Shown one piece after another: positions 3,062 through 40,008 of a stretch of 48,677 nt of DNA (positions are counted from its first letter, which is position 1; every line of letters begins with the position of its first letter). A program made the translations under genes and the position numbers. The notes under the pieces are model-generated. The model saw only the letters and a program-made list of their open reading frames with translations, made no database searches and was not told the DNA's origin. Origin of the DNA: a virus; IMG/VR virus record IMGVR_UViG_3300032285_000779, positions 1-48,677 of that record. One strand, 5' to 3'.

Positions 3062-3502
3062 TCAAGCGCGGGTCAGGCCGCGAGGGTCTTGCACAACAGC
3101 ATCAACTTGGTCATCGTTGATGAGACGGAACTCTTTGCCAAAGATCTTGAATCTTGTGCCAGAGTAAGTACGAACGAGTACAAAGTCACCTTCTTTACAC
3201 CACGCTCCGTTGGGAAACTTGGCAGTGTCTTTGTACGCGTCGGGGCCTACACGCAATACAAACAACACCGTGGTGGCGTGTTCTTCTTGCTTCATAAACT
3301 CCGTTGGTTTGTACAGGTTTGAGCCTGCAATCTTTTCATCAGCTTCCGGAACAACGCACAGCAGCTTCCAACCTGTGGGAGTCGGCAGTGCACCTGCTTT
3401 TGTTTCGTTGTCGGCGTCTTCTTCTGGCGCATCCATTGACTGAATGTGCTTTGGTAAAACGATGTTTGGAGGCAGGATTAATCCTGATTCAGTTTCGATC
3501 AT
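3062..3502 (-). CDS. GroES-like co-chaperonin
   Basis: A 146-aa protein whose C-terminal part (about residues 38-140) reads as a Cpn10/GroES beta-barrel: PTPTGWKLLCVV, then VLRVGPDAYKD, the EGDFVLVRTYSGTRF strand pair and a final LINDDQVDAVV. A loop of about 15 residues after the first strand could be the GroEL-binding mobile loop. No GroEL is encoded, so it would work with the host chaperonin, as T4 gp31 does in capsid folding. That is inference from family and position. I chose the ATG at 3502 because a longer in-frame start at 3550 would overlap the upstream gene by about 60 bases and lacks a good ribosome site. The chosen start overlaps by 14 bases. Confidence 0.72.
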   Translation of the reverse strand: MIETESGLILPPNIVLPKHIQSMDAPEEDADNETKAGALPTPTGWKLLCVVPEADEKIAGSNLYKPTEFMKQEEHATTVLFVLRVGPDAYKDTAKFPNGAWCKEGDFVLVRTYSGTRFKIFGKEFRLINDDQVDAVVQDPRGLTRA

Positions 3503-3689
3503 GAGCTTCTTCAACTTTCTGTAGCAGGTCAAGTAGATAACGCTCTGCAAGGGCTAGACCCGAAATAATCCCGCAGAGTTTTTGGTATTCCTCAAATGAT
3601 CGGCATGTTCCACCAGCCATGTCATCGGCGTAGTTGTTCATGTCTGTGCGTATTTTGTCGCGCAATACGTGTGCGAATTCTTGGATCAT
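3489..3689 (-). CDS. Small head-cassette protein (66 aa), unknown
   Basis: A 66-aa, mostly helical protein that begins in a four-base ATGA overlap with the portal stop and ends inside the start of the co-chaperonin gene. This arrangement implies coupled translation. It contains a mid-region YADDMAGGTCRSFEEY and an amphipathic C-terminal helix (LALAERYLLDLLQKVEEA). Similar small proteins between portal and scaffold are common in podovirus-like genomes, but I recognise no function. It might assist connector or scaffold assembly. Confidence 0.62.
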   Translation of the reverse strand: MIQEFAHVLRDKIRTDMNNYADDMAGGTCRSFEEYQKLCGIISGLALAERYLLDLLQKVEEAHDRN

Positions 3690-13650: not shown

Positions 13651-13681
13651 CCTACACCTGAGTAACATCAGGGTTTCCGCT

Positions 13682-13715
13682 AGGTTGTCAAAGACTTGAC
13701 AACCTATGCTATAAT
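13682..13715 (+). promoter_or_regulatory. Promoter with perfect inverted-repeat operator
   Basis: AGGTTGTCAA (13682-13691) and TTGACAACCT (13696-13705) form a perfect 10-base inverted repeat with a 4-base spacer. TGCTATAAT (13707-13715) is an exact extended -10. A TTGTCA lies 19 bases before the -10, so the operator covers the -35 region. It drives the VWA/MoxR operon. The half-site TTGACA recurs at 26375. Confidence 0.75.
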
Positions 13716-13742
13716 TCTTTCAAACAAAACAGGAGAAGCACT

Positions 13743-14945
13743 ATGAGCTATGAGAAGATGACTCTCAATCAAAGAGTCCAAGCCGCCAACATTGACTGTA
13801 TGCGGCACCCCAAGTTCGCCTTGCTGTCAGGCGTCATCATGCTAGGTAAGAGCGAGGTGTCAGACAAGATACCAACAGCCGCGACCAATGGTCGTGACAA
13901 GAAGTATGGCGTTGACTTCATCACCCCGCTCACACGCAAGCAGATGCGCTACCTCGTACTGCACGAGAACTTCCATGTCGCACTCAAGCACTGCATCTTG
14001 TTCAAGCAGTACACACGCAAGATGCCCAAGCTCACCAACATGGCGCAGGACTATGTGGTCAACGCACTCATCGAAGAGATGGACCCCGAGTTCAAGTTCG
14101 TCGAGCGTCCTACTGAGTCGTTGCTCATTGACCGCAAGTACTTCGGTTGGTCGTTCCCACAAGTTCTCAATGACCTCATCAAGCAAGGCAAGCAAGAGCC
14201 TCAGAGTGGCGAGGGTGATGGCGAGGGCGGTGGTGACTTCGACGAGCCGCTCGATGCACATGAGGATGGTGAGTTCGACGACAACCCCATCGAGCAAGAC
14301 AAGCTTGGCAAGCAGATCGACGATGCCAACAGACAGGGCGAGATACTTGCACGCAAGCTCGCGGGTAAGGAAGCAGGCGGTCGTGACATACTCGGTACAG
14401 CCAAGGAACGCACGACTGACTGGAAGCAAGCGCTTCAAGAGTGGATTAGTTCTATCTCTGCGGGCGATGACAACTCACGCTTCTGTCCCCCCAACAAACG
14501 CTTGCTCGCATCGGGCTTCGTTATGCCATCACACTTCACTGAGTCAGTCGGTGAACTCATCCTCGCTGTCGACACATCGGGCTCTATGTATCCTTATTAC
14601 AGGTTACTCTTTGGCGAGATCGCTCGCATCTGCAACATCACCAAGCCTGCGGGTGTGCGTGTGCTTTGGTGGGACACTGCTGTGTGTGGCGACCAACAGT
14701 TCAAGCCTGCTGACTACGAGCAGATCACATCACTCATGAGTCCCAAGGGTGGTGGCGGCACAACTCCCGATGTAGTCGTTGACTATATTCGTGAGCACAA
14801 GATCGACGCCAAGGCGATCGTCTGGTTAACAGATGGTTACCTCGGTTGCGATACCCCCAATACCCCAATGCCATCTTTGTGGGGTGTGGTAGAGAACGAG
14901 TCATTCGTTCCTACTCATGGCAAAGTCCTGCGTATTTCTGTTTAA
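13743..14945 (+). CDS. VWA-like protein with metallopeptidase-like N-domain (DUF2201 type)
   Basis: A 400-aa protein in two domains. The N-terminus (about 1-140) has LHENFHVALKH, a zincin HExxH motif (H74-H78), as in the putative metallopeptidase domain DUF2201_N. A very acidic linker (155-190) follows. The C-terminal VWA domain has an intact MIDAS: DTSGSM (277-282), a Thr in GGGGTTPD (337-343) and LTDG (D364). VWA proteins of this kind partner with MoxR AAA+ ATPases, and one is encoded 26 bases downstream. The pair could be a metal-dependent protein-remodelling machine. An AGGAG site sets the start. Whether it is a peptidase is unproven. Confidence 0.82.
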   Translation: MSYEKMTLNQRVQAANIDCMRHPKFALLSGVIMLGKSEVSDKIPTAATNGRDKKYGVDFITPLTRKQMRYLVLHENFHVALKHCILFKQYTRKMPKLTNMAQDYVVNALIEEMDPEFKFVERPTESLLIDRKYFGWSFPQVLNDLIKQGKQEPQSGEGDGEGGGDFDEPLDAHEDGEFDDNPIEQDKLGKQIDDANRQGEILARKLAGKEAGGRDILGTAKERTTDWKQALQEWISSISAGDDNSRFCPPNKRLLASGFVMPSHFTESVGELILAVDTSGSMYPYYRLLFGEIARICNITKPAGVRVLWWDTAVCGDQQFKPADYEQITSLMSPKGGGGTTPDVVVDYIREHKIDAKAIVWLTDGYLGCDTPNTPMPSLWGVVENESFVPTHGKVLRISV

Positions 14946-14971
14946 TCTTTTAACTTTTGGAGAACCATATC

Positions 14972-16096
14972 ATGAACAACTTTTTATCTGCACAACAAGT
15001 ATTGAACCTCATCGCCGCTATCGGTGACAAGCGCACAGTTATCGTGGAGGGTGAGAACGGCATCGGCAAGACTGCGCTCTTCCATGCCCTGCGTAAGCTA
15101 CCCAAGTTCGCCAATCACATCGCAGTCAAGCCAGTCGATTGCACGCAGTTGTCTGACGGCTCGGTGTGGATGCCCGACCTTGATCGTGAGAACGGCATCT
15201 CTCGCGAGTTACCCAACGAGCGCTTCGGTGTCAGTGCCAACAACCAACTCGGTGTCAACAACTCCAAGCCAATCATTGTCATGCTCGACGAGATTGCCAA
15301 GGCACCGCAGTTCATCAAGAATGTTCTTGCGCCTATCGTGTACGAGCGTCGTGTCGGCAACCTTGACATGCCCGAGGGTAGCGTTGTGTTCTGTGCTACC
15401 AATCTATCAGTCGAGGGTCTCGGTGATTCCATCCAAGCGCACTTGCGTAATCGTCTTGTGTTCGTCAAGATGCGTAAGCCTAGCGCTGACGAGTGGGTCA
15501 AGTGGGCTACTGACAATCAGATCAACCCAATGATTATTGCGTTCGTTAGCAACGAGCCACGCGTTATGCAGTCGTTCATGGACTACGAGAAGGGCGGTAT
15601 GTTCGAGGGCAAGGACTTGTCCAAGGACAACGGCTTCATCTTCAACCCCAAGTCTATGCAACTTGCATACGCTACGCCTCGTTCACTTGTTGCGGCCAGT
15701 GACTTACTCGACGCAGGTCTCGGTGTTCTCGACGACGACACACTCGAAGCATCTCTCGTTGGTACTGTGGGCGCTACTACTGCGCAGGCATTGTCATCGT
15801 TCATTCGCTTCGGTCGTGAGATCTGCGAGTACTCGCGTGTCATCAAGTCACCTGACACTGCGCCGCTGTCCGACAACCCTACGGCGCAACTCATTCAGGT
15901 GTTCCAGTTCGTCACCCGTGTGGCCGACCGCACCGAGGCCGAGGCTATCGTCAAGTATGTGTGGCGTATGCGTGCAGAGATGCAGTCGATCTTCTGCAAC
16001 ACAGTGGCAACAAGTCAGCGCGTTGCTATGTTCGCAACCATCAACGAGTTCGGTCGCATGTTAGCCGAGCACAAGATCTTCTTCTCAACCAAGTGA
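14972..16096 (+). CDS. MoxR-type AAA+ ATPase
   Basis: A 374-aa AAA+ protein with Walker A GENGIGKT (27-34), Walker B VMLDE (103-107), sensor-1 ATN (142-144) and a likely arginine finger in LRNR (158-161). This is the order found in MoxR/CobS-like ATPases. It is downstream of the VWA protein, so it probably forms a ring that acts with it on a substrate. I chose the ATG at 14972 because TTGGAG lies 9 bases upstream. An in-frame TTG at 14957 overlaps that ribosome site. The substrate is unknown. Confidence 0.85.
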   Translation: MNNFLSAQQVLNLIAAIGDKRTVIVEGENGIGKTALFHALRKLPKFANHIAVKPVDCTQLSDGSVWMPDLDRENGISRELPNERFGVSANNQLGVNNSKPIIVMLDEIAKAPQFIKNVLAPIVYERRVGNLDMPEGSVVFCATNLSVEGLGDSIQAHLRNRLVFVKMRKPSADEWVKWATDNQINPMIIAFVSNEPRVMQSFMDYEKGGMFEGKDLSKDNGFIFNPKSMQLAYATPRSLVAASDLLDAGLGVLDDDTLEASLVGTVGATTAQALSSFIRFGREICEYSRVIKSPDTAPLSDNPTAQLIQVFQFVTRVADRTEAEAIVKYVWRMRAEMQSIFCNTVATSQRVAMFATINEFGRMLAEHKIFFSTK

Positions 16097-16104
16097 GGTA
16101 ACGC

Positions 16105-16461
16105 ATGGCCAATCGTATCAGCAACCTGATCGCGCGGCTGTGCAAGCCGCACATGTCTGAGCTAGGCAAAGAGCTACTCCCTCTCGTCTATGAGGGGGAG
16201 TGGAAGCTCGACGAGTACAGAATAACGCACAAGGATGCAGGCGTATCGTTTTGGGTAGCGAACGGCTTCAGTCGTTTTCGTTTGTACGACATTAAGGGTT
16301 TGCCTTACCACGATGAGTCGTACAGAGATGCGCTCAACTTTGCTGACAAGTGGGTGTTGTGGACATGCTATCAAAATCTACTAGACAGAATTAGCTTAAA
16401 ACCCGCAGAAGCCGCACTCAACATGGTGCGCATGCACAACATGAAAGGAGAAGTTAAATGA
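16105..16461 (+). CDS. MoxR-operon protein (118 aa), unknown
   Basis: A 118-aa protein, 8 bases after the ATPase stop with a GAGGT site. It has a mixed alpha/beta pattern: a basic helical start, then DEYRITHKDAGVSFWVANGF and a Trp-rich helix (FADKWVLWTCYQNLLDR). It overlaps the next gene by ATGA. It may be an accessory factor for the ATPase/VWA pair by position. No family recognised. Confidence 0.62.
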   Translation: MANRISNLIARLCKPHMSELGKELLPLVYEGEWKLDEYRITHKDAGVSFWVANGFSRFRLYDIKGLPYHDESYRDALNFADKWVLWTCYQNLLDRISLKPAEAALNMVRMHNMKGEVK

Positions 16462-16700
16462 CAGACCCAGTAACAAACTCACTGGCATTACAAACGCAGT
16501 TTGGTGATGATGAATTAAAGAAGGAGATAGACAACCACATCATCGAGCTTGCAATGGCCGCCGCACACCAAGTCGTGCTCAATGCGTTCAACAACCCCGA
16601 GTACTTCAAGCGACTCATTGTCAACAACAACTACGAGTTTGAAACAGCCGTTGCACGCTCGATGAAAAACTTTCTCAACAACCCTCGTAACATTTATTAA
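16458..16700 (+). CDS. MoxR-operon small protein (80 aa), unknown
   Basis: An 80-aa helical protein beginning in an ATGA overlap, with AAAGGAGAAG upstream. It contains KKEIDNHIIELAMAAAHQVV and ends FLNNPRNIY. Mostly amphipathic helices, with no membrane span of normal length. Function unknown, and co-translation with the previous gene is likely. Confidence 0.6.
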   Translation: MTDPVTNSLALQTQFGDDELKKEIDNHIIELAMAAAHQVVLNAFNNPEYFKRLIVNNNYEFETAVARSMKNFLNNPRNIY

Positions 16701-16711
16701 GGAGTCTTATC

Positions 16712-17596
16712 ATGACAACAACTACACCCCGCCACAATATCGACACTTGCGCAATGCTCGTGGAGTTCAACGCTTCTGTGTGGACAGCACGCAAGCTAGA
16801 CAAGTCAACCACCGACGAGGTGGTGGCAAGCAAGAACGCAGGCGCCAAAGATGCCGCGCGTGTTAACAAGCATCTGCTCGCAGGTCGTACCGAGTTGGAT
16901 GTCATCCAACAAGCAGTCAGCCGCGCTCGTCAATTCGTATACGACAACACCGCGCCTTGGTCTGACTCAGGTCTGCGCCTCTTACCTACTGTCAACTTCA
17001 TGAAGTTCACCGAGCGCATGAATGACTTCGAGGAAGAGATGGAGGCCTTGGTCAAGGCGTTCGTTGCAATCTATCCTACGCTCATCACAGCGCAGGCCTT
17101 GGCTCTTGGCGATATGTTCAAGAGAGATGACTACCCCACAGCCAATGAGATCATGACCAAGTTCTCGTTCCGCGTTAACTACATGCCAGTCCCATCATCG
17201 GGTGACTTCCGTGTGGATGTGGGCAACCAAGCACAGGCAGAACTCAAGGCACGCCTTGAATCTCTGACCCAAGAACGCATCGACTCTGCTATGGCAGATG
17301 TGCGTGAAAGACTTAGCACTCACTTAAAGCGTATGTCAGATCGTCTTACGACTGACTATGTGGGCGGTGAAGCTAAGCAACGGCGTTTCCACGACACCCT
17401 TGTCGATGGTGCGCTTGAGTTGTGTGACCTCACTAAGTCATTGAATGTGACAAACGACATGGCTTTAGAGGAAGCACGCAAGCAGTTGGAACAGCTACTC
17501 GTTGGCGTAACACCTGCTGATCTGCGTAAGAACGAGGCCATCCGTCAAGATGTCAAGAAGAATGTCGACGCCATCCTCGACAAGTTCAACTTTTAA
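16712..17596 (+). CDS. DUF3150-like protein of the MoxR/VWA module
   Basis: A 294-aa, largely helical protein. Its N-terminus (LVEFNASVWTARKLD, residues 16-30) resembles the start of DUF3150 proteins, which I recall occurring beside CobS-like ATPases and CobT-like VWA proteins on plasmids and integrative elements. Later parts form long helices (ERMNDFEEEMEALVKAF, RLESLTQERIDSAMADVRE). AAGGAG lies upstream. Its position completes a three-part VWA, AAA+ and DUF3150-like module. The family call rests on N-terminal resemblance and context, so it is moderate. Confidence 0.6.
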   Translation: MTTTTPRHNIDTCAMLVEFNASVWTARKLDKSTTDEVVASKNAGAKDAARVNKHLLAGRTELDVIQQAVSRARQFVYDNTAPWSDSGLRLLPTVNFMKFTERMNDFEEEMEALVKAFVAIYPTLITAQALALGDMFKRDDYPTANEIMTKFSFRVNYMPVPSSGDFRVDVGNQAQAELKARLESLTQERIDSAMADVRERLSTHLKRMSDRLTTDYVGGEAKQRRFHDTLVDGALELCDLTKSLNVTNDMALEEARKQLEQLLVGVTPADLRKNEAIRQDVKKNVDAILDKFNF

Positions 17597-17783: not shown

Positions 17784-18347
17784 ATGCCTGATCTTCAATC
17801 AGCTTTAAAAACTGCAATCGAATCGTGGGAACCCACTCCCACAAACCAACAATTCAAGGAGAAAACTATGTCTAAAACCCCATTCGAAATTAAAAACAAT
17901 GTCACCCGCGTCACCTTTGATTATGTGAAGTTGCACCCCGGTACGACATCCGCCGCCGCTTGTAGAGATCTTGCCAAGCATGGCTTCAAGGGGTCATCCA
18001 TCACAGCGCTCATGGCGCAGTTCGTTCGCGCAGGTCTTGCGGTGCGTGACAACAACCATGGGTATCGTGTGGTGGTGGACGAGTACATACCGATGAAGGC
18101 TTCAGCCAAGTACACCAAGAAGCCTGCACCCAAGCTCGCGCCTAAACCCGCACCCCAACCCACAACCAAGGCAAAAGCACCCGCCGAGCCACAAAGCGAA
18201 GGCATTGCCGCCCTCCAACCCGAAGCTACAAGCAAGCGGACAAACATCATTGTGCTTGGCAGGTCTCCAGAAGAAGTTATCAAACATATGAATGTGCTTC
18301 AGGCTAAGGAGTTGTACGAATACCTGAAGAAGTTGTTTGGAGGCTAA
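17784..18347 (+). CDS. Winged-helix-like protein with Pro/Lys linker (187 aa)
   Basis: The core (about residues 38-97) reads as a winged helix: FDYVKLHPGTTSAAACRDLA, then GFKGSSITALMAQFVRAGLA and a wing NNHGYRVV. An Ala/Pro/Lys-rich linker (about 108-145) and a C-terminal helix (VIKHMNVLQAKELYEYLKKL) follow. It probably binds DNA and may regulate the early genes. Two in-frame starts each have a good ribosome site: ATG 17784 (GAAAGGAACGG) and ATG 17868 (AAGGAGAAAACT). Both may be used, giving 187- and 159-aa forms. Confidence 0.6.
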   Translation: MPDLQSALKTAIESWEPTPTNQQFKEKTMSKTPFEIKNNVTRVTFDYVKLHPGTTSAAACRDLAKHGFKGSSITALMAQFVRAGLAVRDNNHGYRVVVDEYIPMKASAKYTKKPAPKLAPKPAPQPTTKAKAPAEPQSEGIAALQPEATSKRTNIIVLGRSPEEVIKHMNVLQAKELYEYLKKLFGG

Positions 18348-22300: not shown

Positions 22301-22597
22301 ATGCAGATACCAAAACAAATATCGGTTGGCAGAAAGACATACGTCGTCACCCGACCGCACACCATTCAAGACCCTGCCGCCATGGGGCGCACGTACTTCG
22401 ACGAAAACCGCATCGAGCTTGCGCTGTACGACAACAAGGGCAACACGTTTGAGCAAGCCGAGGTGGACGATACTTTCTGGCACGAGCTAACGCATGCCAT
22501 TCTGTACGACATGGGGCACGACTTGTGTGACAACGAGCGCTTTGTTATCGCTTTCGCCAATAGGTTGAGCAATGCCGTTAACTCTGCGAAACTCTGA
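22301..22597 (+). CDS. Putative zincin-like metallopeptidase (98 aa)
   Basis: A 98-aa protein with HELTHAILYDMG (about residues 61-72), a HExxH zinc site followed by a glycine, and conserved RTYFDENRIEL upstream. This resembles small SprT-like or phage zincin proteins with no substrate known. It sits 8 bases after the polymerase, with AGGAGAAG upstream. It could act on a host or replication protein. Confidence 0.72.
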   Translation: MQIPKQISVGRKTYVVTRPHTIQDPAAMGRTYFDENRIELALYDNKGNTFEQAEVDDTFWHELTHAILYDMGHDLCDNERFVIAFANRLSNAVNSAKL

Positions 22598-26337: not shown

Positions 26338-26380
26338 TTGCAAATCAATTCAGTCGTGCTATGCTGTCAAACCATTGACA
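26338..26380 (+). promoter_or_regulatory. Promoter with TGTCAA-N4-TTGACA operator
   Basis: An extended -10 TGCTATGCT (26357-26365) lies 16 bases after TTGCAA (26338-26343). Overlapping the predicted transcript start is TGTCAA-ACCA-TTGACA (26365-26380), a 6-base inverted repeat with the same half-sites and spacing as the operator at 13682. It would control the gene pair 26405 and 26865. Confidence 0.6.
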
Positions 26381-26404: not shown

Positions 26405-26851
26405 ATGTTAAACATAGATGATGAGGAGCCTGCTCCTCAGGAAGCACCGACAGAGGTCACAGTCCCCATGGACAAGTTGGCAAAGGTGTATCGCAGGATG
26501 CAGTCACGCATACAAGAACTGACTACGCAATACGAGTCAGAGATTGAAGACATCAAGCGTCAGCAAGATGTTGTGAAGATTGCACTCAAAGACCAGATGC
26601 TCAAGCTAGGCGTATCAAGCGTGCGCACAGACCAAGGCACAGTAGTGTTGTCTACCAAGACACGCTACAACACACAGGACTGGGACTCGTTCAAAGAGTT
26701 CATCAAGGAACACGATGCGTTGGACTTGTTGGAGAAGCGTATTGCGCAGACCAACATGTCGACGTTCTTGGCCGACAACCCCAGTCTAGTTCCCGCAGGG
26801 CTTAACTCGACAACCGAGTACGCCATTTCAGTTCGTAAACCAACCAAGTAA
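26405..26851 (+). CDS. Coiled-coil protein of replication cluster (148 aa), unknown
   Basis: A 148-aa protein with CAGGAGAAGC before the ATG. After an acidic start it has a coiled coil (about 20-60, KLAKVYRRMQSRIQELTTQYESEIEDI) and a compact C-terminal domain with VSSVRTDQGTVVLSTKTRYNTQDW and TTEYAISVRKP. The long helix plus globular end recalls Gam-like or recombination accessory proteins, but I do not recognise the family. It is transcribed with the candidate ssDNA-binding protein next door. Confidence 0.65.
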   Translation: MLNIDDEEPAPQEAPTEVTVPMDKLAKVYRRMQSRIQELTTQYESEIEDIKRQQDVVKIALKDQMLKLGVSSVRTDQGTVVLSTKTRYNTQDWDSFKEFIKEHDALDLLEKRIAQTNMSTFLADNPSLVPAGLNSTTEYAISVRKPTK

Positions 26852-31269: not shown

Positions 31270-31447
31270 GGGCTTCTTTGTTCCGGGGCTAGACGTTGAG
31301 ATGGTGAGGGAGTTGGGCTTACGTGCCGCTCTCCCCCACCGAATCAATGCGCAGGCTGTCGTGGGTATCAGGAAGAACCAATTAGGCGTATGGTTTTATC
31401 GGAAATTTCCCGCGTCGTATTTGCAAGCGCAATCTTCATCTTCCTGA
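31229..31447 (+). CDS. Small conserved phage protein (72 aa), convergent overlap
   Basis: A 72-aa protein beginning MEILYPWAKLKPGEGFFVPG, with ELGLRAALPHR and GVWFYRK. I recognise this pattern from a small family in other phages (FFVP...RELGLRAA), which supports it despite the odd location. It overlaps the primase end by 41 bases and runs 80 bases head-on into the 3' end of the giant minus-strand gene. It is the last plus-strand gene. Function unknown. Confidence 0.65.
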   Translation: MEILYPWAKLKPGEGFFVPGLDVEMVRELGLRAALPHRINAQAVVGIRKNQLGVWFYRKFPASYLQAQSSSS

Positions 31448-34400
31448 TGTCGTCAAGTTGTTTACGCTTGGCTTCAGGAGACAGACTAGATGCGGCAATA
31501 GCTCGCTCGGCTTGCGTCAGCTTGTTCATATTGGCTTTGAACTTGTCGCCCAGTTCGGCCTCCATGTACTCGTTGCCGCGCTTGGTCAGCAAGGCTTGAG
31601 CTTCCTGAGTTTTGCCCTCATGCATCAGTGTGCGCACAGTGATACGCACACGCTCGTCTTCATTCATGCGCATGTAGACTGAGTTGATGATGCCGCCTGC
31701 GTCGTTGGGTTGGAACGCACCGCCCACGATTGGGTACTCAGACAAGCGCTTGACTGCCTGCTCTGGTGTCTCTTTTGCAGGTACGCCAAGGCTGATCGCG
31801 TGTAGGAACGCCAGACCCATTGTGCCTGTGTAGCCGTTGACGATTGCCTCCATCTTGATGGGGGACAAGCCAAATGTTTTACCAACCAGCTTAGCCATCT
31901 CAGATGTATTAGCGCGGTACTGTTCTTCAGGCAACAGCTTCTTCTCACGCTCAGACAGAATGTCGCGGCCTGTGTAGAACGACTTCTCAAGCGCCGCCTC
32001 AACGGTTGGCTTGATGGCTTGAGGCAAAGGAATCAGCGTAGGAATCTTGAGGCCGTTGCCAATGTCGATAGTGGGCATGCTCGTGCCGCCCGGCAAGGTC
32101 TGAATCAAGATCTGGTTAAACGCTTGAACTGCTTCCTCACTGCCATGCTTCTGAGTCATGCTGTTGTACAGCGCCTCGGGAATAGCCTTGAAGATGTAGC
32201 CAATCTCAAACGGCACAGGAATCTTCAGCGGCTCGTCCAGACCGGGCACGCGTATAAACCAGTTGCCATACTTCTGATCGGGCGTAGCGTTCTTGTAGGC
32301 TTCGTCGTCCTGCATCGCCATGGCGTAGAGAATAGAAGCCGCCGCCATCATGCCGCCGCGCATCAACAATTTCTCACGAATACGCAGTTGGTCGTTGAAC
32401 GGCATCTTTCCTGCCAACGCCTTGTACAAAACATTCAAGCCCTGAATCTGTGCGTTGAAGAAAGGAATCAATGCGTTGGCTACGTGGATGCTTGGAGATG
32501 CGCCGCGCTTGTTAAAGTTCATGGACTCCAAAGACATCAGCGTAGCTTCCATCTCAGACAGCCCTTGCTCAATATAACTGTTGTACTGAGCACGTCGTGT
32601 GAGCGCGTCAGCCTCCATACCCAAAGCTTCAAATTTACCCAACGCTTTCATCCATCCGGACTGGCCATCAGTAATGTCACGCAGAATCTTGGACAAGTCC
32701 TCGCTTGTACCTTTGAACTGCTGACCACCAACAATGCCGCGTTTCTCCAAAGTTTCTTTGGCAGTGCCGTTTATTTCTTTCAAGGCGCCAATGATAGGCA
32801 TGAAGTCAGCGCCAGACATAATCGGTGCGGCCAACGAATCACGGAACAATTGCTTGGCCATGTACAAGGGGCTCAGCGTCACAGCCTTACGCAAACCTTG
32901 CGCGGGAAGCGCCATGGCACGCAACAGGAACGGCATCTGTGTTGGGATACCCTCCATACCCTTGACCAAGATGTCAGCAGGCACGCCTGTCTCAAACTCC
33001 TTGTTGCCGATCTTCACTTTTTCTGTGTGAATAATCGCGTAACGGTCATCGCCGTCTACTTTAAATTTGACAACGTCTGCGCCTTCGGCCTTTTTAACCA
33101 ACGTGGCGGACTTCAGATCAAGTAGTTCCATGACTGCGTTTTTGGTTGCAAGGTTACGCATGCCCATGTCCACCAACATGTTGGTGTTCTGCACCGAGCT
33201 GGTCATGAAGTCAAGGATGGCTGTGTCACCGCCAACCAACTCTTTCAAGTAAGGCTGATCTGCAATACTGCCAATACGAACAGGGCTCTCGTTGCCGATC
33301 ACCAACTCGACGACGCCTTTGCGCTCACGATAGAACGGAATGTAATCGTCCTGCGCCACCAAGCGTTTCACAAGTTCTTTAGACAAAGCGCCTGTGCTGG
33401 CCACAAAGTCCAACATGTCGCGGTTGTACTGGTTGTACTCTTTGCGTGCGGCTTCAAAGATGTACTTTAACTCGGGGTTGCTCTTGACCAGTGCAGTTAC
33501 GCGGTCAAGCATTTCTTGTGTCAACACAGGTTTGCCGTTGGCGTCTGTGCCAAAGTTAAGCGTCTCAATACCTTTGTTAGCGGCACGAATAGCGGCCATG
33601 TATGTTGTAAAGGCTTGGTTGACAGCTTCGCCGTTACCAATATATTGCTTGGCATCTTTCAGTGTGTTCACAATACTGCCGAGGTTGGCTCCGCCTGAAG
33701 TCTCAACCACACGCTCAATGCGTCCATCGCTGCGGGTAATTTCCTTGATGGCAGGAGCACCGTCAGCCACAGCCTTAGACACAATGTTCATGCGTTGGTC
33801 ATATGTGCGCAGGTAGTACAACATCTGCGTACCGGCAAGCCTGTCCATGTATTTGGCTAAACGCTCAAAGCCTGCAAAGCGGTCAACAAGCTGTGTCTCA
33901 AACGCAAGGCCGGTTGTGTTGGCTTTGATTGAATCAAATATCGTACGCTTTTGCGCCACCACACGGCTGATAACGTCACCTATCTTTGCGAAGTCCTCGT
34001 TGTAGACAGGCTCTTGATACGCCAAGGACTCACTTTTCAAATCTTGGATTGGCTTGTTGTTCTCGTACAACTCAGCTTTGGTGTAAGCCAAAATTTCTTC
34101 TGTCAGCGCCACAGACTCTGCAAACAAAGACTGGGCAGCCTTAGCAGGCATGTCAAAAAACTGCGACATGATCTCCACAAAACGCGTGAAGATGCTCTTG
34201 CGTGGTTTATCCGAAGGGATTTCGGTCAGCAGTTTTTGGAAGTCGCGGTTGGCAAACAACTCAGCAATAAACTCGTGCTCGTTCTTTAGCGCGTAGATTG
34301 ACTGGCGTGTCCGAGCCAAACCCATACCGTGCTGACGGAAGTACGCTTTGCCTTCTTTGGTTTCAAGCCAATCAATTGTTTTTGTGCGCAGTTCATTGAC

Positions 34401-37400
34401 CCGAGCCTTAAGCTCGGGGCTGTCGTTCATAGCGCGAGACGTAGCGGCGTGTGTCAACTCATGCAACAGAACTTTGTTGGCGTTGCTGTTGAATCTAGAG
34501 GGGGCACGGGTGTACACAACGTTAAGGCGTGTGTTATACAAACCTGCGGTGTTGTTACGGATGACGCCGTCGATAGCATACACACGCCCCTCGCCATTTT
34601 CTGCGGGAGAAGATTCAAACACATCCGCCAAGCGCATAAACAACTCGCTCACTTGCGGAGAAGATGTTCTCTTAGCGCCGTACTTAGCCGCATCTGCAAA
34701 CGTCATGCCGTGGAAAGGCGCGTCTGTAACAAACTCCGTACCAAGTTCTTTCGCAACAGCGTCAGACGTAAAGTCGGCTTCTGTGTACAAATTTTTAAAA
34801 ACCGTTTTCGGCGTAGGCATAGCCGTACGGGTCTTAGGAGGCGCGCTTGGTTTAGGGGGCACAAAAACTGCCGCTGTTTTACTTGTAGCCGCCCTCTTTA
34901 CGGCTGGCAGTTTACGTGTGTCAGTAAAGTCTGACACGCTCATTTGGCGTACAACTTCTAAATGCTTTTTGGCTTCCTCGTACATGTCGCGGTACTCAGG
35001 GTCACCCGCAAAAATCTCTACGTCGGCTTTGTAAGTCAACTCAGCCTTTTTCAGCGCCATCTCAATACGTTTCTCAAACGTACTTGCTCTTGATCGCTCC
35101 GCGTACATTTCTACACGATACGCAACGCTACCCTCTGCGCCGTCAACCATGAAAGTGCGCTGGTTCTTGTAAAAGACCGGAGCCTTTCTAGATTCCATTC
35201 CCAGATTGTCAAAGTCATCACGCAGTGTTGCAGTCAAAGATGCTGTAATGGAATCATAGTCATCGGCCATGAAAGGCTCATTGGAGAATTCTCCATAGAT
35301 GCCTGACTCTCGCTCAGCTTTCATACCTTCGGATGCGGCTTCAAGTGCTTGGCGGTAGCCAGTACGCAAAGGTTTCTTTGCCCCCATAGCGGCAGTGCTC
35401 GGCGCCGTAGCGGCACGTTGTTTCTTAGCAGGTTTGCCTTCCAACAAAACTTCGCGTTGAGCTTCCAAAGACTCAATGTTTTGCATCACGCCAGCTTTAG
35501 CAAGCGCGGCATCGCGTTCGGCTTGTGGCAAAGACTCGTCCTCGGCCATCTTCTTAAGCGCAGACAGCTCGTTGGGGAACTCTTCGTAAGCGCCAAGCTC
35601 TGTGATAAGGTCTGCAACTTCCTTGTCGATTGTTTCGACCTGCGCGGCTTTCTTAAGTGTGTTTTGTTCAGCTTCGTATGCGCGGTCAGCTTTGTCTTGA
35701 TCTTCCCTGCGCAGTTTGTCTGCTTCTTTTTCAGCGGTGCTCTTAATTTCTTCAGTCGTGCCTGCCTGACGTTTAACGCCTTTACCGCCCAGCTTGTCTT
35801 TCCAGAACTCTTCCATCTGTTGTTGTTCAGATTTGGCGGCTTCTTTAAATTTAGTTGCGCGTGTCTCAGCCGCCTTGACGGTTTGTTTCTGAACTTCTAA
35901 GTTCTTCATTGCTTGGCGATAAGCAAACGGATACGCGTTGGGGTTGTCAGTGACGAGTTCCCCGCGCATGGCGGCAAGGTTAGCTTCCTGCATTTCCAAA
36001 TACTGGCGTTCTGTCTTGACGTTGCCATCAAGCATCGCTTGGGCTACTGCGTAGCTGCCATCAAATTCAGTTGAGCGCTCTTCCAACAAGTCGCTAAGTT
36101 CTGTCTCTTGTTCCTTAATTTTGTCTTCAAGGTCGTCGATAATGCCCTTCTTCTCTTCGTAGCGGAACAACTCGTATGTGGCCAGCTCGGTGCGGTTTGC
36201 ACCTTCTTTCTGCGCCAACACGCTGTCAAAGCGCTTCTTGATCTTGTCCAGTTCAGCCTGCTCTTTGATGAGCGTTGACTTGGCTTTTTCAAGATCAGTG
36301 CTAGCTTTACCAATAACGGGGTCGAGCATGAACGCCAGAGCGCCATCCATCTCACGACGAGCGTTGGCAATCGCTTTCTCCACAGTGGCTTGATACACGT
36401 CTCTTTGTTTACGTACATCTTCTTCAGCAGTAAGAAGCTGTTTCTGCGCGTCAGTCAAAATAGCTGAACCTCGCATCACGTCTTTGAGGTACTTCAAGGT
36501 GTCGCGCAGTCCTGCCATACGCTCACTAACTTCTTTAGCGGCGGCTCTTACATTGGCGTTGGTGTCCTGCATGAACGATAACAACTGGTTGTCCGCATCG
36601 GCAAGGCGGCGTCCTTGCGCCAACAAGTTCATAGCTTCTTGAACACGCGCCTTATATTTGGGCAACTCTTGTGTACGGAACTCGTTTAGCAAACGCTCAG
36701 CGGTTGCCTGCTCTTGTGGCGTCAGCTTTTGCTGTTTGGAGTATTTGTAGAGAATGTTTTTCTCTTCTTGCGTCTTGCCTGCTTCTGGCATACCTGCAAA
36801 GACTTTGGCCATTTCTTCGTCAGTCCAACGGCTTGTGTCTTTCCAAAAGAACTGCGTGTCCTTCTTGATGCTGTCCATGCGCTCTTTGATTTGTTCAATC
36901 AAACGCAAGCGGTTCTTACGCGTAGCTTCTCTGGCCAAACGTACCGGCTCAGTCTTCTTGAACAGCTCTTTGGCTTTGGCCAGCGCTTCCCACACAGGTT
37001 TCATGCGCGGTGACTTGGCAAAGTTTGCCGGTGTTGCACGGATGTAGCCAAGGTCTTCTTGCGCCTCAGGGAACAGTGCCTTCTGACCTTCGGGTACAGT
37101 TTCCGTAGCACGAATAGCATCATTGATGGCTTGGATGTCTACCTGTTTGACGTCGCGTCCTGCAACAATAGCGTCTACAACAGGCTCAACCTTGTCCAGA
37201 ATATCACGGGTAGCTTTGCCTGCGTCCATGATGTCAGCGGCGGCATTGAGTGCATCACGAGCACCGGGGCGCATACCGCCCATCTTGGCCATCTTGTTGC
37301 GCACAAATTCTGTACGGCGAGCCAACTCGCCACGAAGTGTAGTGGCGGTTTCGCCACGGGCTTCGGCAGTCTTCTTAGCTTCCTCTGCGGCAAACTGACG

Positions 37401-39950
37401 CTTGAGTGGGCCAGCCTCTACGCGCTGAACTTTGCTTGGTGCTTCTTCTGACAACTTGTTTCTGACAGCTTCAACGATTGCTCGGAAGTGTTTAACTTCA
37501 GCTTCGCTCAGCTTCTTGACGCCACCACTAACTAGGCGTCTTTCGGTAACTGCAGGGCGCACGATCTTGTCGGCACGCATCTGCGCAGGCTGAACAATCA
37601 CGTCTTCGTATTCAGGGGCGGCACCTTTTTCTTTTGAACGCTCAACCCAGTTGTTAAAGGCATCGTTCATTTTGGACGCAGCAACAAGAGCCTCATCTGT
37701 TGTGAGCGCGGGTTTGCCTGCGGCACGGCGATGAATAGCGGATTCTTGCAAAGCGTTTGTGATGAACTGCGCACGAGCTTCGTCAGCGCGTTTGGCCAGA
37801 CCTTCTTCGGTATTGGCGGCTGTGACATCTCTGCCCAACGTCTGCTCGGAACGAATACTAGATGTAGCATCCTCCACCTTGGCCATGGCTTCTTGCTGTG
37901 CACGACGGGCGGCAATCAACTCACGAGCGTAAGAGGCGCGGGTGTCTTCTTCAGCAGGACCACGCTTCAAGCCTTTGGTATCTACGCCAGCAGGTTTCGC
38001 TGCGGACATGGCGTTGAGCTGGTCCATGGCGGCGTTACGGCGTTGCAAAGCTTCGATGGCTGCGGCACGATTGCCTTGGCGACGGAACATCCGATATTCT
38101 TTATCTGCCTGTTCAGAACTATCAAGCAATCCCTCAACAGTCTTACGAACGGTAGGCGCTTCACGCAATGGCTTGAGGTCTTCGTTGACTTTTACTGCGC
38201 CGGGCTGTCCGGCCAAGGCCTTCTCAAACATTGGGTCAAGGTACGCAAAGTTTGGCTCAGCATTTTTGGCATGCTCTTCAACATCTGCTTGAGACTCTTT
38301 GTACATAGCCATCGCGTCATCGGCTGGCTTGTTGGTCTGCTCTTTAAGAACTTCTTGGCGCTGTGCCAACTCTTGTTTGCTTGCGGCTTTCTCGCCCTTC
38401 TCAACAGCAGCAAGGCGCATCTTGATGCCGGTCAGCAATGTGTTGTTGTCTTTGTCGCTCAACCCTTGCACAGTTGTGCGGGTCTTGACCATCTCTGCAG
38501 CCTTTGTTGGGTCCTGCATCATGTAGTCAGCGGTGTCGGCCAAGTCAAATACGCCAGCGCCACGAGCAGCATCAAACTGCCCTTGTGCATAGTCTTGCAA
38601 ACCTGTGTCTACAACTGGGGCAGTCTCTTCCACACCAAACAACTGGCCCTTGCCACGGCGAACAACAGGCTCTGCTTCTTTTGGCTGCTTGACAGGTTTA
38701 ACTTCCATGCCCATTTGTTGAAGCATGAAGTCCTCAACAGGCATCTTGGCCAGTGCTGCTTGGCGCTCAATCTCTTTGAGCTTGCCTTTGGATGTGTGGT
38801 AGTCCTGCGCCAATGGCTTGATCTGCTTTTCAAGCTCTTTAATTTGTGAGTTAATATTTTTATTAAACGCCCGGTCTGCGTCGGCGGTGGGAGACTCTTT
38901 GTCAATCTTTTTGATCTGCGCAACTAAGGCTTGCTTTTGCTTAGCCAAATCGTCGTACTTCTGCACAACTTCTTGTGCGTAGTCAGGAGTCTCTTTGTAT
39001 TCGCGCTCTTTAGCAAGGCGTTGTTCTTCTTCCTCGCGAAGCTTTTGCAACTCTTCTTGTTGCGGAATTTGCTGTTTAGCAGCTTCTCCACGGCGCTCCA
39101 TGTAACGACCCGCAGGGGCCAACACACCGCCAAGAACGGCACCGCCAACCAAACTATCCCAGTACTCATCTCGCGCTTTTTCATCAGAGATATTTAAACC
39201 GGCTTGCAGGCGTTCAAAGAATTGCTGACCGGCTTCGGTCAAACCCTCCGTGCCCATGGCCTTGCCTGTGGCAAGCGCATAGTCTTTAGCCACATTCATC
39301 GTACCCTGCTTGGCAATCTCAGCGGCAACTTTCTCAGGAACTTCTTTACCAGCAGCAGCAAATATCCCACGAATACCGGGAAGCATTTTTAAACTAAGCG
39401 CATCTAATGCGGCTTGCGGAACAGCGGCGGCAGCGGCGTATCCCAAGTTTGTTTCGCCAAGCTTTTTGCCCTCGTCCATCTGACGAGACAAGTTAGAACC
39501 TGTAAACTGCGCAGCAGAAGCCAAACCTGCAGCACCAAGTGCAGCCAAACCTTCGGGAGCCACTGCACCTGCAACAAGTGGTGCAGCCATATAAGGAAGA
39601 GACCCGCCTAACAACTCGGCAATCTTTGTTCCGGGAGCTTCCATCCAACCTTTTTGCGTGGGCGCAAAGGTTTTCTTTTTGTAAGCTTCTTGCTCGGCTA
39701 TATATTTTTCAGCGGCAGCTTCATCCATGAGGCCACTACGACCAGCAAGCGCGGCAACGTCTCCTTTGAGAGAAGCCAAGCCTGCTTTAGATGCTGCAAG
39801 AAAACCGCCTTCGGGTCCGGCTTCTTTTTTCTGACGTATGCCAAACGACTCAGGGTACATCTCCTGCGCTCGTTCCCATGCTTGTTGGGGCGTCTCGCCC
39901 TCCCGAATAGTTACGGAGTTTCCGTCTGGCAGGGGCAAGTACTGTGGCAT
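31368..39950 (-). CDS. Giant polyvalent internal virion protein with zincin motif (2860 aa)
   Basis: A 2860-aa protein, by far the largest gene. The N-terminus (about 90-270) is Ala/Gly-rich and weakly membrane-like (YMAAPLVAGAVAPEGLAALGA). Long Lys/Glu/Gln coiled-coil stretches span about 330-1500. LLHELTHAAT (around 1829) is a HExxH zinc site with a downstream EHEFIAELFA near 1892 as possible third ligand. The last third is a mixed region. The pattern fits large polyvalent proteins injected with DNA through a podovirus tail. ATG 39950 has AGGA 5 bases upstream and is preferred to a GTG at 39983. Confidence 0.8.
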   Translation of the reverse strand: MPQYLPLPDGNSVTIREGETPQQAWERAQEMYPESFGIRQKKEAGPEGGFLAASKAGLASLKGDVAALAGRSGLMDEAAAEKYIAEQEAYKKKTFAPTQKGWMEAPGTKIAELLGGSLPYMAAPLVAGAVAPEGLAALGAAGLASAAQFTGSNLSRQMDEGKKLGETNLGYAAAAAVPQAALDALSLKMLPGIRGIFAAAGKEVPEKVAAEIAKQGTMNVAKDYALATGKAMGTEGLTEAGQQFFERLQAGLNISDEKARDEYWDSLVGGAVLGGVLAPAGRYMERRGEAAKQQIPQQEELQKLREEEEQRLAKEREYKETPDYAQEVVQKYDDLAKQKQALVAQIKKIDKESPTADADRAFNKNINSQIKELEKQIKPLAQDYHTSKGKLKEIERQAALAKMPVEDFMLQQMGMEVKPVKQPKEAEPVVRRGKGQLFGVEETAPVVDTGLQDYAQGQFDAARGAGVFDLADTADYMMQDPTKAAEMVKTRTTVQGLSDKDNNTLLTGIKMRLAAVEKGEKAASKQELAQRQEVLKEQTNKPADDAMAMYKESQADVEEHAKNAEPNFAYLDPMFEKALAGQPGAVKVNEDLKPLREAPTVRKTVEGLLDSSEQADKEYRMFRRQGNRAAAIEALQRRNAAMDQLNAMSAAKPAGVDTKGLKRGPAEEDTRASYARELIAARRAQQEAMAKVEDATSSIRSEQTLGRDVTAANTEEGLAKRADEARAQFITNALQESAIHRRAAGKPALTTDEALVAASKMNDAFNNWVERSKEKGAAPEYEDVIVQPAQMRADKIVRPAVTERRLVSGGVKKLSEAEVKHFRAIVEAVRNKLSEEAPSKVQRVEAGPLKRQFAAEEAKKTAEARGETATTLRGELARRTEFVRNKMAKMGGMRPGARDALNAAADIMDAGKATRDILDKVEPVVDAIVAGRDVKQVDIQAINDAIRATETVPEGQKALFPEAQEDLGYIRATPANFAKSPRMKPVWEALAKAKELFKKTEPVRLAREATRKNRLRLIEQIKERMDSIKKDTQFFWKDTSRWTDEEMAKVFAGMPEAGKTQEEKNILYKYSKQQKLTPQEQATAERLLNEFRTQELPKYKARVQEAMNLLAQGRRLADADNQLLSFMQDTNANVRAAAKEVSERMAGLRDTLKYLKDVMRGSAILTDAQKQLLTAEEDVRKQRDVYQATVEKAIANARREMDGALAFMLDPVIGKASTDLEKAKSTLIKEQAELDKIKKRFDSVLAQKEGANRTELATYELFRYEEKKGIIDDLEDKIKEQETELSDLLEERSTEFDGSYAVAQAMLDGNVKTERQYLEMQEANLAAMRGELVTDNPNAYPFAYRQAMKNLEVQKQTVKAAETRATKFKEAAKSEQQQMEEFWKDKLGGKGVKRQAGTTEEIKSTAEKEADKLRREDQDKADRAYEAEQNTLKKAAQVETIDKEVADLITELGAYEEFPNELSALKKMAEDESLPQAERDAALAKAGVMQNIESLEAQREVLLEGKPAKKQRAATAPSTAAMGAKKPLRTGYRQALEAASEGMKAERESGIYGEFSNEPFMADDYDSITASLTATLRDDFDNLGMESRKAPVFYKNQRTFMVDGAEGSVAYRVEMYAERSRASTFEKRIEMALKKAELTYKADVEIFAGDPEYRDMYEEAKKHLEVVRQMSVSDFTDTRKLPAVKRAATSKTAAVFVPPKPSAPPKTRTAMPTPKTVFKNLYTEADFTSDAVAKELGTEFVTDAPFHGMTFADAAKYGAKRTSSPQVSELFMRLADVFESSPAENGEGRVYAIDGVIRNNTAGLYNTRLNVVYTRAPSRFNSNANKVLLHELTHAATSRAMNDSPELKARVNELRTKTIDWLETKEGKAYFRQHGMGLARTRQSIYALKNEHEFIAELFANRDFQKLLTEIPSDKPRKSIFTRFVEIMSQFFDMPAKAAQSLFAESVALTEEILAYTKAELYENNKPIQDLKSESLAYQEPVYNEDFAKIGDVISRVVAQKRTIFDSIKANTTGLAFETQLVDRFAGFERLAKYMDRLAGTQMLYYLRTYDQRMNIVSKAVADGAPAIKEITRSDGRIERVVETSGGANLGSIVNTLKDAKQYIGNGEAVNQAFTTYMAAIRAANKGIETLNFGTDANGKPVLTQEMLDRVTALVKSNPELKYIFEAARKEYNQYNRDMLDFVASTGALSKELVKRLVAQDDYIPFYRERKGVVELVIGNESPVRIGSIADQPYLKELVGGDTAILDFMTSSVQNTNMLVDMGMRNLATKNAVMELLDLKSATLVKKAEGADVVKFKVDGDDRYAIIHTEKVKIGNKEFETGVPADILVKGMEGIPTQMPFLLRAMALPAQGLRKAVTLSPLYMAKQLFRDSLAAPIMSGADFMPIIGALKEINGTAKETLEKRGIVGGQQFKGTSEDLSKILRDITDGQSGWMKALGKFEALGMEADALTRRAQYNSYIEQGLSEMEATLMSLESMNFNKRGASPSIHVANALIPFFNAQIQGLNVLYKALAGKMPFNDQLRIREKLLMRGGMMAAASILYAMAMQDDEAYKNATPDQKYGNWFIRVPGLDEPLKIPVPFEIGYIFKAIPEALYNSMTQKHGSEEAVQAFNQILIQTLPGGTSMPTIDIGNGLKIPTLIPLPQAIKPTVEAALEKSFYTGRDILSEREKKLLPEEQYRANTSEMAKLVGKTFGLSPIKMEAIVNGYTGTMGLAFLHAISLGVPAKETPEQAVKRLSEYPIVGGAFQPNDAGGIINSVYMRMNEDERVRITVRTLMHEGKTQEAQALLTKRGNEYMEAELGDKFKANMNKLTQAERAIAASSLSPEAKRKQLDDIRKMKIALANTTREISDKTIRLIGSS

Positions 39951-39980
39951 AGTATTCCTAATTGTGCGGCTGGAGATAAT

Positions 39981-40008
39981 CACCCATGCAGGCCGAGCTA
40001 CATGGGTG
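39981..40008 (-). other. Hairpin between virion genes
   Basis: CACCCATG (39981-39988) and CATGGGTG (40001-40008) form a perfect 8-bp inverted repeat around a 12-base loop, in the 66-base gap between the transglycosylase and the giant gene. There is no T run in either direction, so it is not a normal terminator. It may be an RNA-processing or protein-binding site. Confidence 0.5.

Follow-up and report, generated by a model that had tools for sequence, protein, structure and literature searches.

What do a MoxR-like ATPase, a VWA protein with a metallopeptidase motif, and a DUF3150-like protein do together in a phage operon? The question is raised by the freshwater virus record IMGVR_UViG_3300032285_000779, whose 48,677 bases are called the window here. 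Several related IMG/VR records reach 62 to 66 kb, so the window probably represents part of a tailed phage genome of ∼65 kb. Its plus strand encodes a 400-amino-acid metallopeptidase-VWA protein (positions 13743 to 14945), the ATPase (14972 to 16096), and the 294-amino-acid DUF3150-like protein (16712 to 17596), here called the trio. There is strong support for the three genes being a single functional unit, and the identity of that unit as a remodeling machine follows from the families to which the proteins belong. As to its purpose, we favor, at somewhat less than an even chance, an ATP-driven three-part machine that serves the element's own DNA replication or recombination, perhaps with peptidase activity.

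The metallopeptidase-VWA protein matched both DUF2201 domains above the Pfam cut-offs, DUF2201_N at 2e-12 (47.7 bits; cut-off, 23.2) and the VWA-like DUF2201 at 5.5e-11 (43.1 bits; cut-off, 26.4). A sequence-only reading of this stretch had noticed an HExxH motif and a full MIDAS in the protein, and both were confirmed: the HExxHxxxxH residues are H74, E75, H78, and H83, and the MIDAS is complete (D277-T-S-G-S281, T340, and D364). HExxHxxxxH and DTSGS were kept in 80/80 extracted viral VWA proteins, that of the window included. One locus, L154:5431-6732, encodes a Band 7 protein without VWA and was excluded from statements on VWA proteins. In the structural model, the C-terminal half matched a VWA domain (Z, 12.8; 132 residues; 2.5 Å), and the best Foldseek match was the MIDAS domain of MDN1 (E, 2.9e-4). 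PHROG 1314 and many phage records label the DUF2201 protein an "HNH endonuclease," a label that, for the window protein, lacks Pfam and motif support and looks wrong.

The second gene encodes 374 amino acids when read from its ATG; the open reading frame listing starts at a TTG at 14957. Walker A, Walker B, the sensors, and the arginine finger are intact, and we take the residues concerned to be D106 and E107 of Walker B, sensor-1 N144, arginine R161, and sensor-2 R237. Walker A was kept in 79/79 ATPases of the viral family. The window protein matched PHROG 1297 ("ATPase") at 8e-41, and every match to Pfam AAA models fell under the cut-off; among 14 related ATPases, AAA_5 was matched by 12 and AAA_3 by 5 at E values up to 0.01.

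The third gene encodes a mixed alpha/beta protein with two long helices in its model (pLDDT, 77.8; pTM, 0.45). Because its score against Pfam DUF3150 (PF11348) was below the cut-off (E, 9e-4; 19.0 bits; cut-off, 24.9), we call it DUF3150-like, as the sequence-only reading had done, and other evidence agrees with that name despite the Pfam score. Eighteen of the 22 aligned members matched PF11348 at E values up to 0.1 (best, 7e-7), tblastn matched the window protein to a phage protein labeled DUF3150 at 1e-25, and Foldseek matched its model to viral DUF3150 models in BFVD at 8.2e-15. The phage profile matched a profile of Burkholderiales plasmid proteins at 9.4e-53, which in turn matched canonical DUF3150 at 1.8e-6 (probability, 89.8). 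The direct match of the phage profile to canonical DUF3150 was weak (0.0046; probability, 7.6), that to the single pCAR1 sequence was 0.15, and the Burkholderiales profile is the only profile route from the phage protein to canonical DUF3150. No solved structure resembled the model at E values up to 0.001, and the three trio profiles, searched against the sequences of solved structures, yielded nothing useful. Matches of the model by VIA-align were generic helical bundles over residues 166 to 294 (Z up to 9.7) and were not counted.

The three genes were found in constant company. We gathered 97 viral loci encoding a DUF3150-like protein, of which 33 have 4 kb or less upstream of that gene and were left uncounted; a 39% fragment, L089, did not enter the locus counts. 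All three genes, whose presence in related phages the sequence-only reading had depended on, occurred in 64/64 viral loci whose upstream sequence exceeded 4 kb, and every one of the 15 loci without one or two trio genes had 4 kb or less. With the window included, the order was VWA-ATPase-DUF3150 in 53 loci and ATPase-VWA-DUF3150 in 30, and it is from this staying together through a change of gene order that we argue for a joint function. Against four long relatives, the DUF3150-like protein was 97/83/76/84% identical, the ATPase 97/77/72/78%, and the VWA protein 93/76/57/76%, compared with 94/85/85/86% for the helicase, 92/79/83/81% for the terminase, and 89/79/73/77% for the polymerase. The gene before the trio showed 60/39/30/36% and the gene after it 73/37/26/30%. 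The trio is conserved like the helicase, terminase, and polymerase, and its neighbors diverge. Two small proteins between the ATPase and the DUF3150-like gene, g3 (16105 to 16461) and g4 (16458 to 16700), both on the plus strand, are present as earlier reported; they are unconserved in the family and mostly undetectable in the four long relatives.

The same components occur on plasmids. Among 72,556 plasmid records, a Paraburkholderia protein used as the query retrieved 41, with a related trio complete in 41/41 and contiguous on one strand in the order ATPase-DUF3150-VWA in 37; in the four others, respectively, the VWA match was partial, the match fell at the record ends, a DUF3150 gene matched in part held a wide gap, and the spacing was wide. 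Type IV secretion genes follow the trio in five of the Burkholderiales stretches opened. Canonical Pfam DUF3150 was found on 1118 records of the same set (pCAR1 DUF3150, 8.3e-92), six of which were opened. In all six, DUF3150 is followed by a VWA protein with HExxH at residue 57 to 62 and a MIDAS-type motif, and the record also carries a MoxR relative; in five, a lambda-type exonuclease gene lies within 3.5 kb upstream. An initial view of the peptidase motif as a phage peculiarity of no consequence was dropped in view of these six proteins; shuffled proteins contained HExxH in 0.6 to 2.2% of cases. On two of the six, the Vibrio and IncC plasmids, the MoxR relative precedes bet-exo and DUF3150-VWA follows, with one stop codon in each aligned MoxR stretch; on gammaproteobacterial plasmids, the trio adjoins recombination genes. 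The association of DUF3150 with MoxR-VWA pairs on mobile elements was thus borne out in every viral locus, plasmid record, and canonical-DUF3150 plasmid counted here.

Several described systems resemble the trio. Passages of Iyer et al. 2021 (PMC7824862) report MoxR and metallopeptidase-vWA proteins in group 2.2 jumbo phages and propose a role in virion assembly; there too, MoxR adjoins a vWA protein with an N-terminal metallopeptidase domain in a tailed phage. Those passages describe no third partner, whereas here the DUF3150-like gene is constant, the phage is ∼65 kb, and plasmids carry the genes as well. In part of PMC7650795, the panproteome of N4-like phages includes gp24 of N4, an AAA+ ATPase, and gp25; here too, an ATPase is followed by a DUF2201-type protein, and the window genes are matched by PHROG 1297 and 1314. 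Passages of PMC2147016 describe a MoxR chaperonin of two subunits from a Bacillus phage. On pCAR1, the ORF100-103 cluster, conserved in R478, Rts1, SXT, and R391 according to passages of PMC2642839, likewise has the order ATPase-DUF3150-VWA and a VWA protein with an N-terminal HExxH and a C-terminal MIDAS; it differs in that the VWA protein is of the NorD/CobT type, the ATPase carries CbbQ_C, and the canonical DUF3150 is only remotely related to the phage protein. The ternary conflict systems treated, together with the MoxR-vWA mechanism, in passages of Kaur et al. 2020 (PMC7159879) share a three-part logic of MoxR, vWA, and a dedicated third protein but have another third part and variable effectors, and the trio occurs on phages and plasmids. 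DUF3150 was the only Pfam match of the window's third protein, and no VMAP, iSTAND, FtsH, or beta-propeller third component was found. DUF3150 is not named in the text seen of PMC7159879, PMC7824862, and PMC12839542. The term occurred in no paper of the literature searched, outside which lay subscription papers and supplements. MoxR-VWA(-peptidase) pairs are known in phages, and within that literature the DUF3150 partner appears to be undescribed.

In RavA-ViaA, CbbQO, and midasin, an AAA+ ring acts through a MIDAS domain. The trio differs from these in having an extra zincin-like domain and a putative third subunit. At the thresholds used, and with no direct comparison made, neither the RavA LARA domain nor a ViaA-type VWA was matched among the window proteins, and CobS/CobT domains gave no Pfam or NCBIfam match in them. 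The sequence-only reading had seen here a remodeling ATPase/VWA unit with a peptidase motif, and this part of it is supported. By such a mechanism, the MoxR-like ATPase would form a ring, and the VWA protein would grip a substrate peptide through the metal site of its MIDAS and be pulled or twisted by that ring. The N-terminal zincin-like domain may nick the protein so presented, and the DUF3150-like protein would be the dedicated third subunit of the complex, an adaptor or scaffold tying the pair to its substrate. The likeliest substrate would be a complex of proteins assembled on the element's own DNA as it replicates or recombines, for example a filament or an end-bound complex in need of disassembly.

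A substrate in the element's own DNA metabolism is our best single guess, drawn from the slow evolution of the trio, its occurrence on both phages and plasmids, and its recombination neighbors. The trio appears to serve mobile DNA in general and not to be a one-off weapon against a host. A more specific version, in which a general mobile-element machine strips or cleaves DNA-bound proteins (filaments, end-bound nucleases, or crosslinks) during Red-type recombination and replication, is quite unlikely; it would make the trio an ATP-driven DNA-clearing protease that works like eukaryotic Wss1/Cdc48 and is common to aquatic phages and resistance-spreading conjugative elements. MoxR and VWA genes are widespread, unexplained phage genes, labeled in some records as HNH endonuclease or cobalamin genes, and a constant third partner on tailed phages and IncC-like conjugative plasmids would replace an imprecise annotation with a specific complex of three parts. 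A role in recombination or replication, if true, would bear on the upkeep and diversification of large resistance plasmids.

A number of observations weigh against placing the putative substrate of the trio in DNA metabolism. Burkholderiales plasmid trios lie beside type IV secretion or other genes, with no exonuclease neighbors, and on pCAR1 ssb, RecT, and exo lie 12 to 18 kb from the trio (the lambda-exonuclease ∼18 kb downstream). By profile, the phage ATPase matched CbbQ-type plasmid ATPases at Walker A alone. HExxH is lost in 2/10 Burkholderiales/Rhodovastum VWA proteins opened, and MIDAS is lost in none; peptidase activity is therefore not always needed. In the stretches opened, the N4-type phages Presley and C121 encode an ATPase and a DUF2201 protein, and the Synechocystis plasmid pSYSA encodes a MoxR-VWA pair, with no DUF3150 recognized in any of them. 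Because such pairs exist, MoxR-VWA is the wider theme, and the third part distinguishes one branch of it. Finally, passages of PMC2791158 report that SXT deletions of bet, exo, s067, s068, and s070 lower transfer by at most 10-fold, and some of the deleted genes are, we infer by synteny, trio genes.

What else might such a machine do? It could be a virion-assembly chaperone that matures or proteolytically processes structural proteins, as proposed for the jumbo phages with the same domain make-up (passages of PMC7824862) and in keeping with the tail development in which p618, of the MoxR type, and p892 of Acidianus two-tailed virus (ATV) are placed (passages of PMC4124505). Conservation of the trio like that of head genes also fits. 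Yet the operon sits in the nonstructural plus-strand arm, away from the structural genes, and the same components are found on the 41 plasmid records and the opened canonical-DUF3150 plasmids. Since plasmids build no virions, assembly cannot be the shared role, and we regard this reading as unlikely. Metal or cofactor insertion by an auxiliary metabolic gene pair, in the manner of the CobS-CobT cobaltochelatase or of CbbQO/NorQD activation, draws on pCAR1, where the ATPase matches CbbQ_C and the VWA protein, annotated NorD, weakly matches CobT_C. The window proteins themselves matched no CobS, CobT, or CbbQ model, and no chelatase large subunit or metallo-enzyme client was found among the window genes searched (the unmatched genes of a 65-kb relative lay outside that search), which leaves this the most improbable of the explanations considered.

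The sequence-only reading had itself suggested that the target might be a host complex or defense. A trio that disassembles or cleaves a host complex, such as a defense complex or a nuclease meeting incoming DNA, would address a problem that phages and conjugative plasmids share, and an operator of its own is compatible with regulated expression. But the slow evolution of the trio between diverging neighbors speaks against a fast-evolving counter-defense gene, and its constancy across the viral family is unlike that of a patchy accessory gene; an anti-host action is improbable. The trio might also be the element's own defense against competing phages or plasmids, since ternary MoxR-vWA conflict systems are described in which the third part is distinct and the effectors are peptidases (passages of PMC7159879 and PMC12839542); in those systems, however, the third part is VMAP, iSTAND, FtsH, or a beta-propeller and the effectors change fast, whereas the trio has a DUF3150-like third part and no varying effector, and we consider this very unlikely. 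A housekeeping role in the element's DNA metabolism fits better than the suggested host target, because the trio evolves as slowly as core replication and head genes and has recombination neighbors on gammaproteobacterial plasmids.

The upstream region suggests how the operon may be controlled. A perfect inverted repeat with 11-bp arms and a 4-nucleotide spacer, TAGGTTGTCAA-AGAC-TTGACAACCTA, lies at 13681 to 13706 and is our proposed operator; a perfect repeat had been noticed earlier, with arms of 10 bases, 1 too few. It overlaps the −35 region of an extended −10 element, TGCTATAAT (13707 to 13715, plus strand), which is the sole exact match in the window and is retained in close relatives. 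Of the strong promoter claimed before, the promoter holds, as an extended −10; the window has no consensus −35 at 17 bp from that element, the inverted repeat occupying the −35 region. In relatives, the position of the repeat is kept, and where one arm has changed, the other has changed to match (e.g., TAGGTTGTCAA-N4, GCCTGTCAAACCTTTGACAGGC, and CTGTCAAAGCTTTGACAG). After 74 upstream regions (window and relatives) were thinned to 26, arms of at least 8 were present in 17 and absent in 9, compared with 23 of 1040 random windows from the same loci: the inverted repeat exceeds chance. A dimeric DNA-binding protein may sit at this palindrome and control the trio promoter. One candidate, named by inference only, is the small protein encoded at 17784 to 18347 (plus strand), whose N-terminal part looks winged-helix-like by eye and which has no significant family. 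As the window repeat precedes the −10, an RNA-hairpin reading was rejected there; in some ATPase-first relatives, the palindrome is nearer to the gene, and an RNA hairpin is possible.

The operator core TGTCAA-N4-TTGACA was found in 13/16 related records in one or two copies each (two copies in four records, none in three) and never in the reversed control. A second exact copy in the window, at 26365 to 26380, lies upstream of the gene at 26405 to 26851, which follows the helicase. The core stood upstream of only 3/25 homologues of that gene, and a conserved regulon was rejected, few relatives having a second copy.

The minus strand of the window carries terminase, portal, head protein, and ejection-type genes, and the plus strand carries DNA polymerase, an SNF2-type helicase, a PD-(D/E)XK exonuclease, and a DUF927/primase-like gene; the exonuclease, helicase, and polymerase all lie downstream of the trio, in favor of a role in DNA metabolism. 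Directly 3′ of the DNA polymerase, positions 22301 to 22597 (plus strand) encode a 98-amino-acid protein that contains HELTH, weakly matches a SprT-like family (E, 0.011), and shows 44 to 85% identity in four relatives; from its sequence, it is a possible second zinc peptidase of the replication arm. Amid the head genes lies a GroES co-chaperonin-like gene (3062 to 3550, minus strand; PHROG 3188, 1.8e-8), and the minus strand also carries a 2871-amino-acid open frame (31368 to 39983), the N-terminal part of which, the part searched, had no family match. Among other records, a 75-kb Acinetobacter "plasmid" (L204; NZ_CP110465.1) with RNA polymerase, MoxR, and VWA genes resembles an N4-type phage genome. 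Three cyanophage records (OQ594354, OL906435, and PP438419) with differing names and hosts are each 65,014 bases long, gave identical match values, and are possibly one phage deposited three times.

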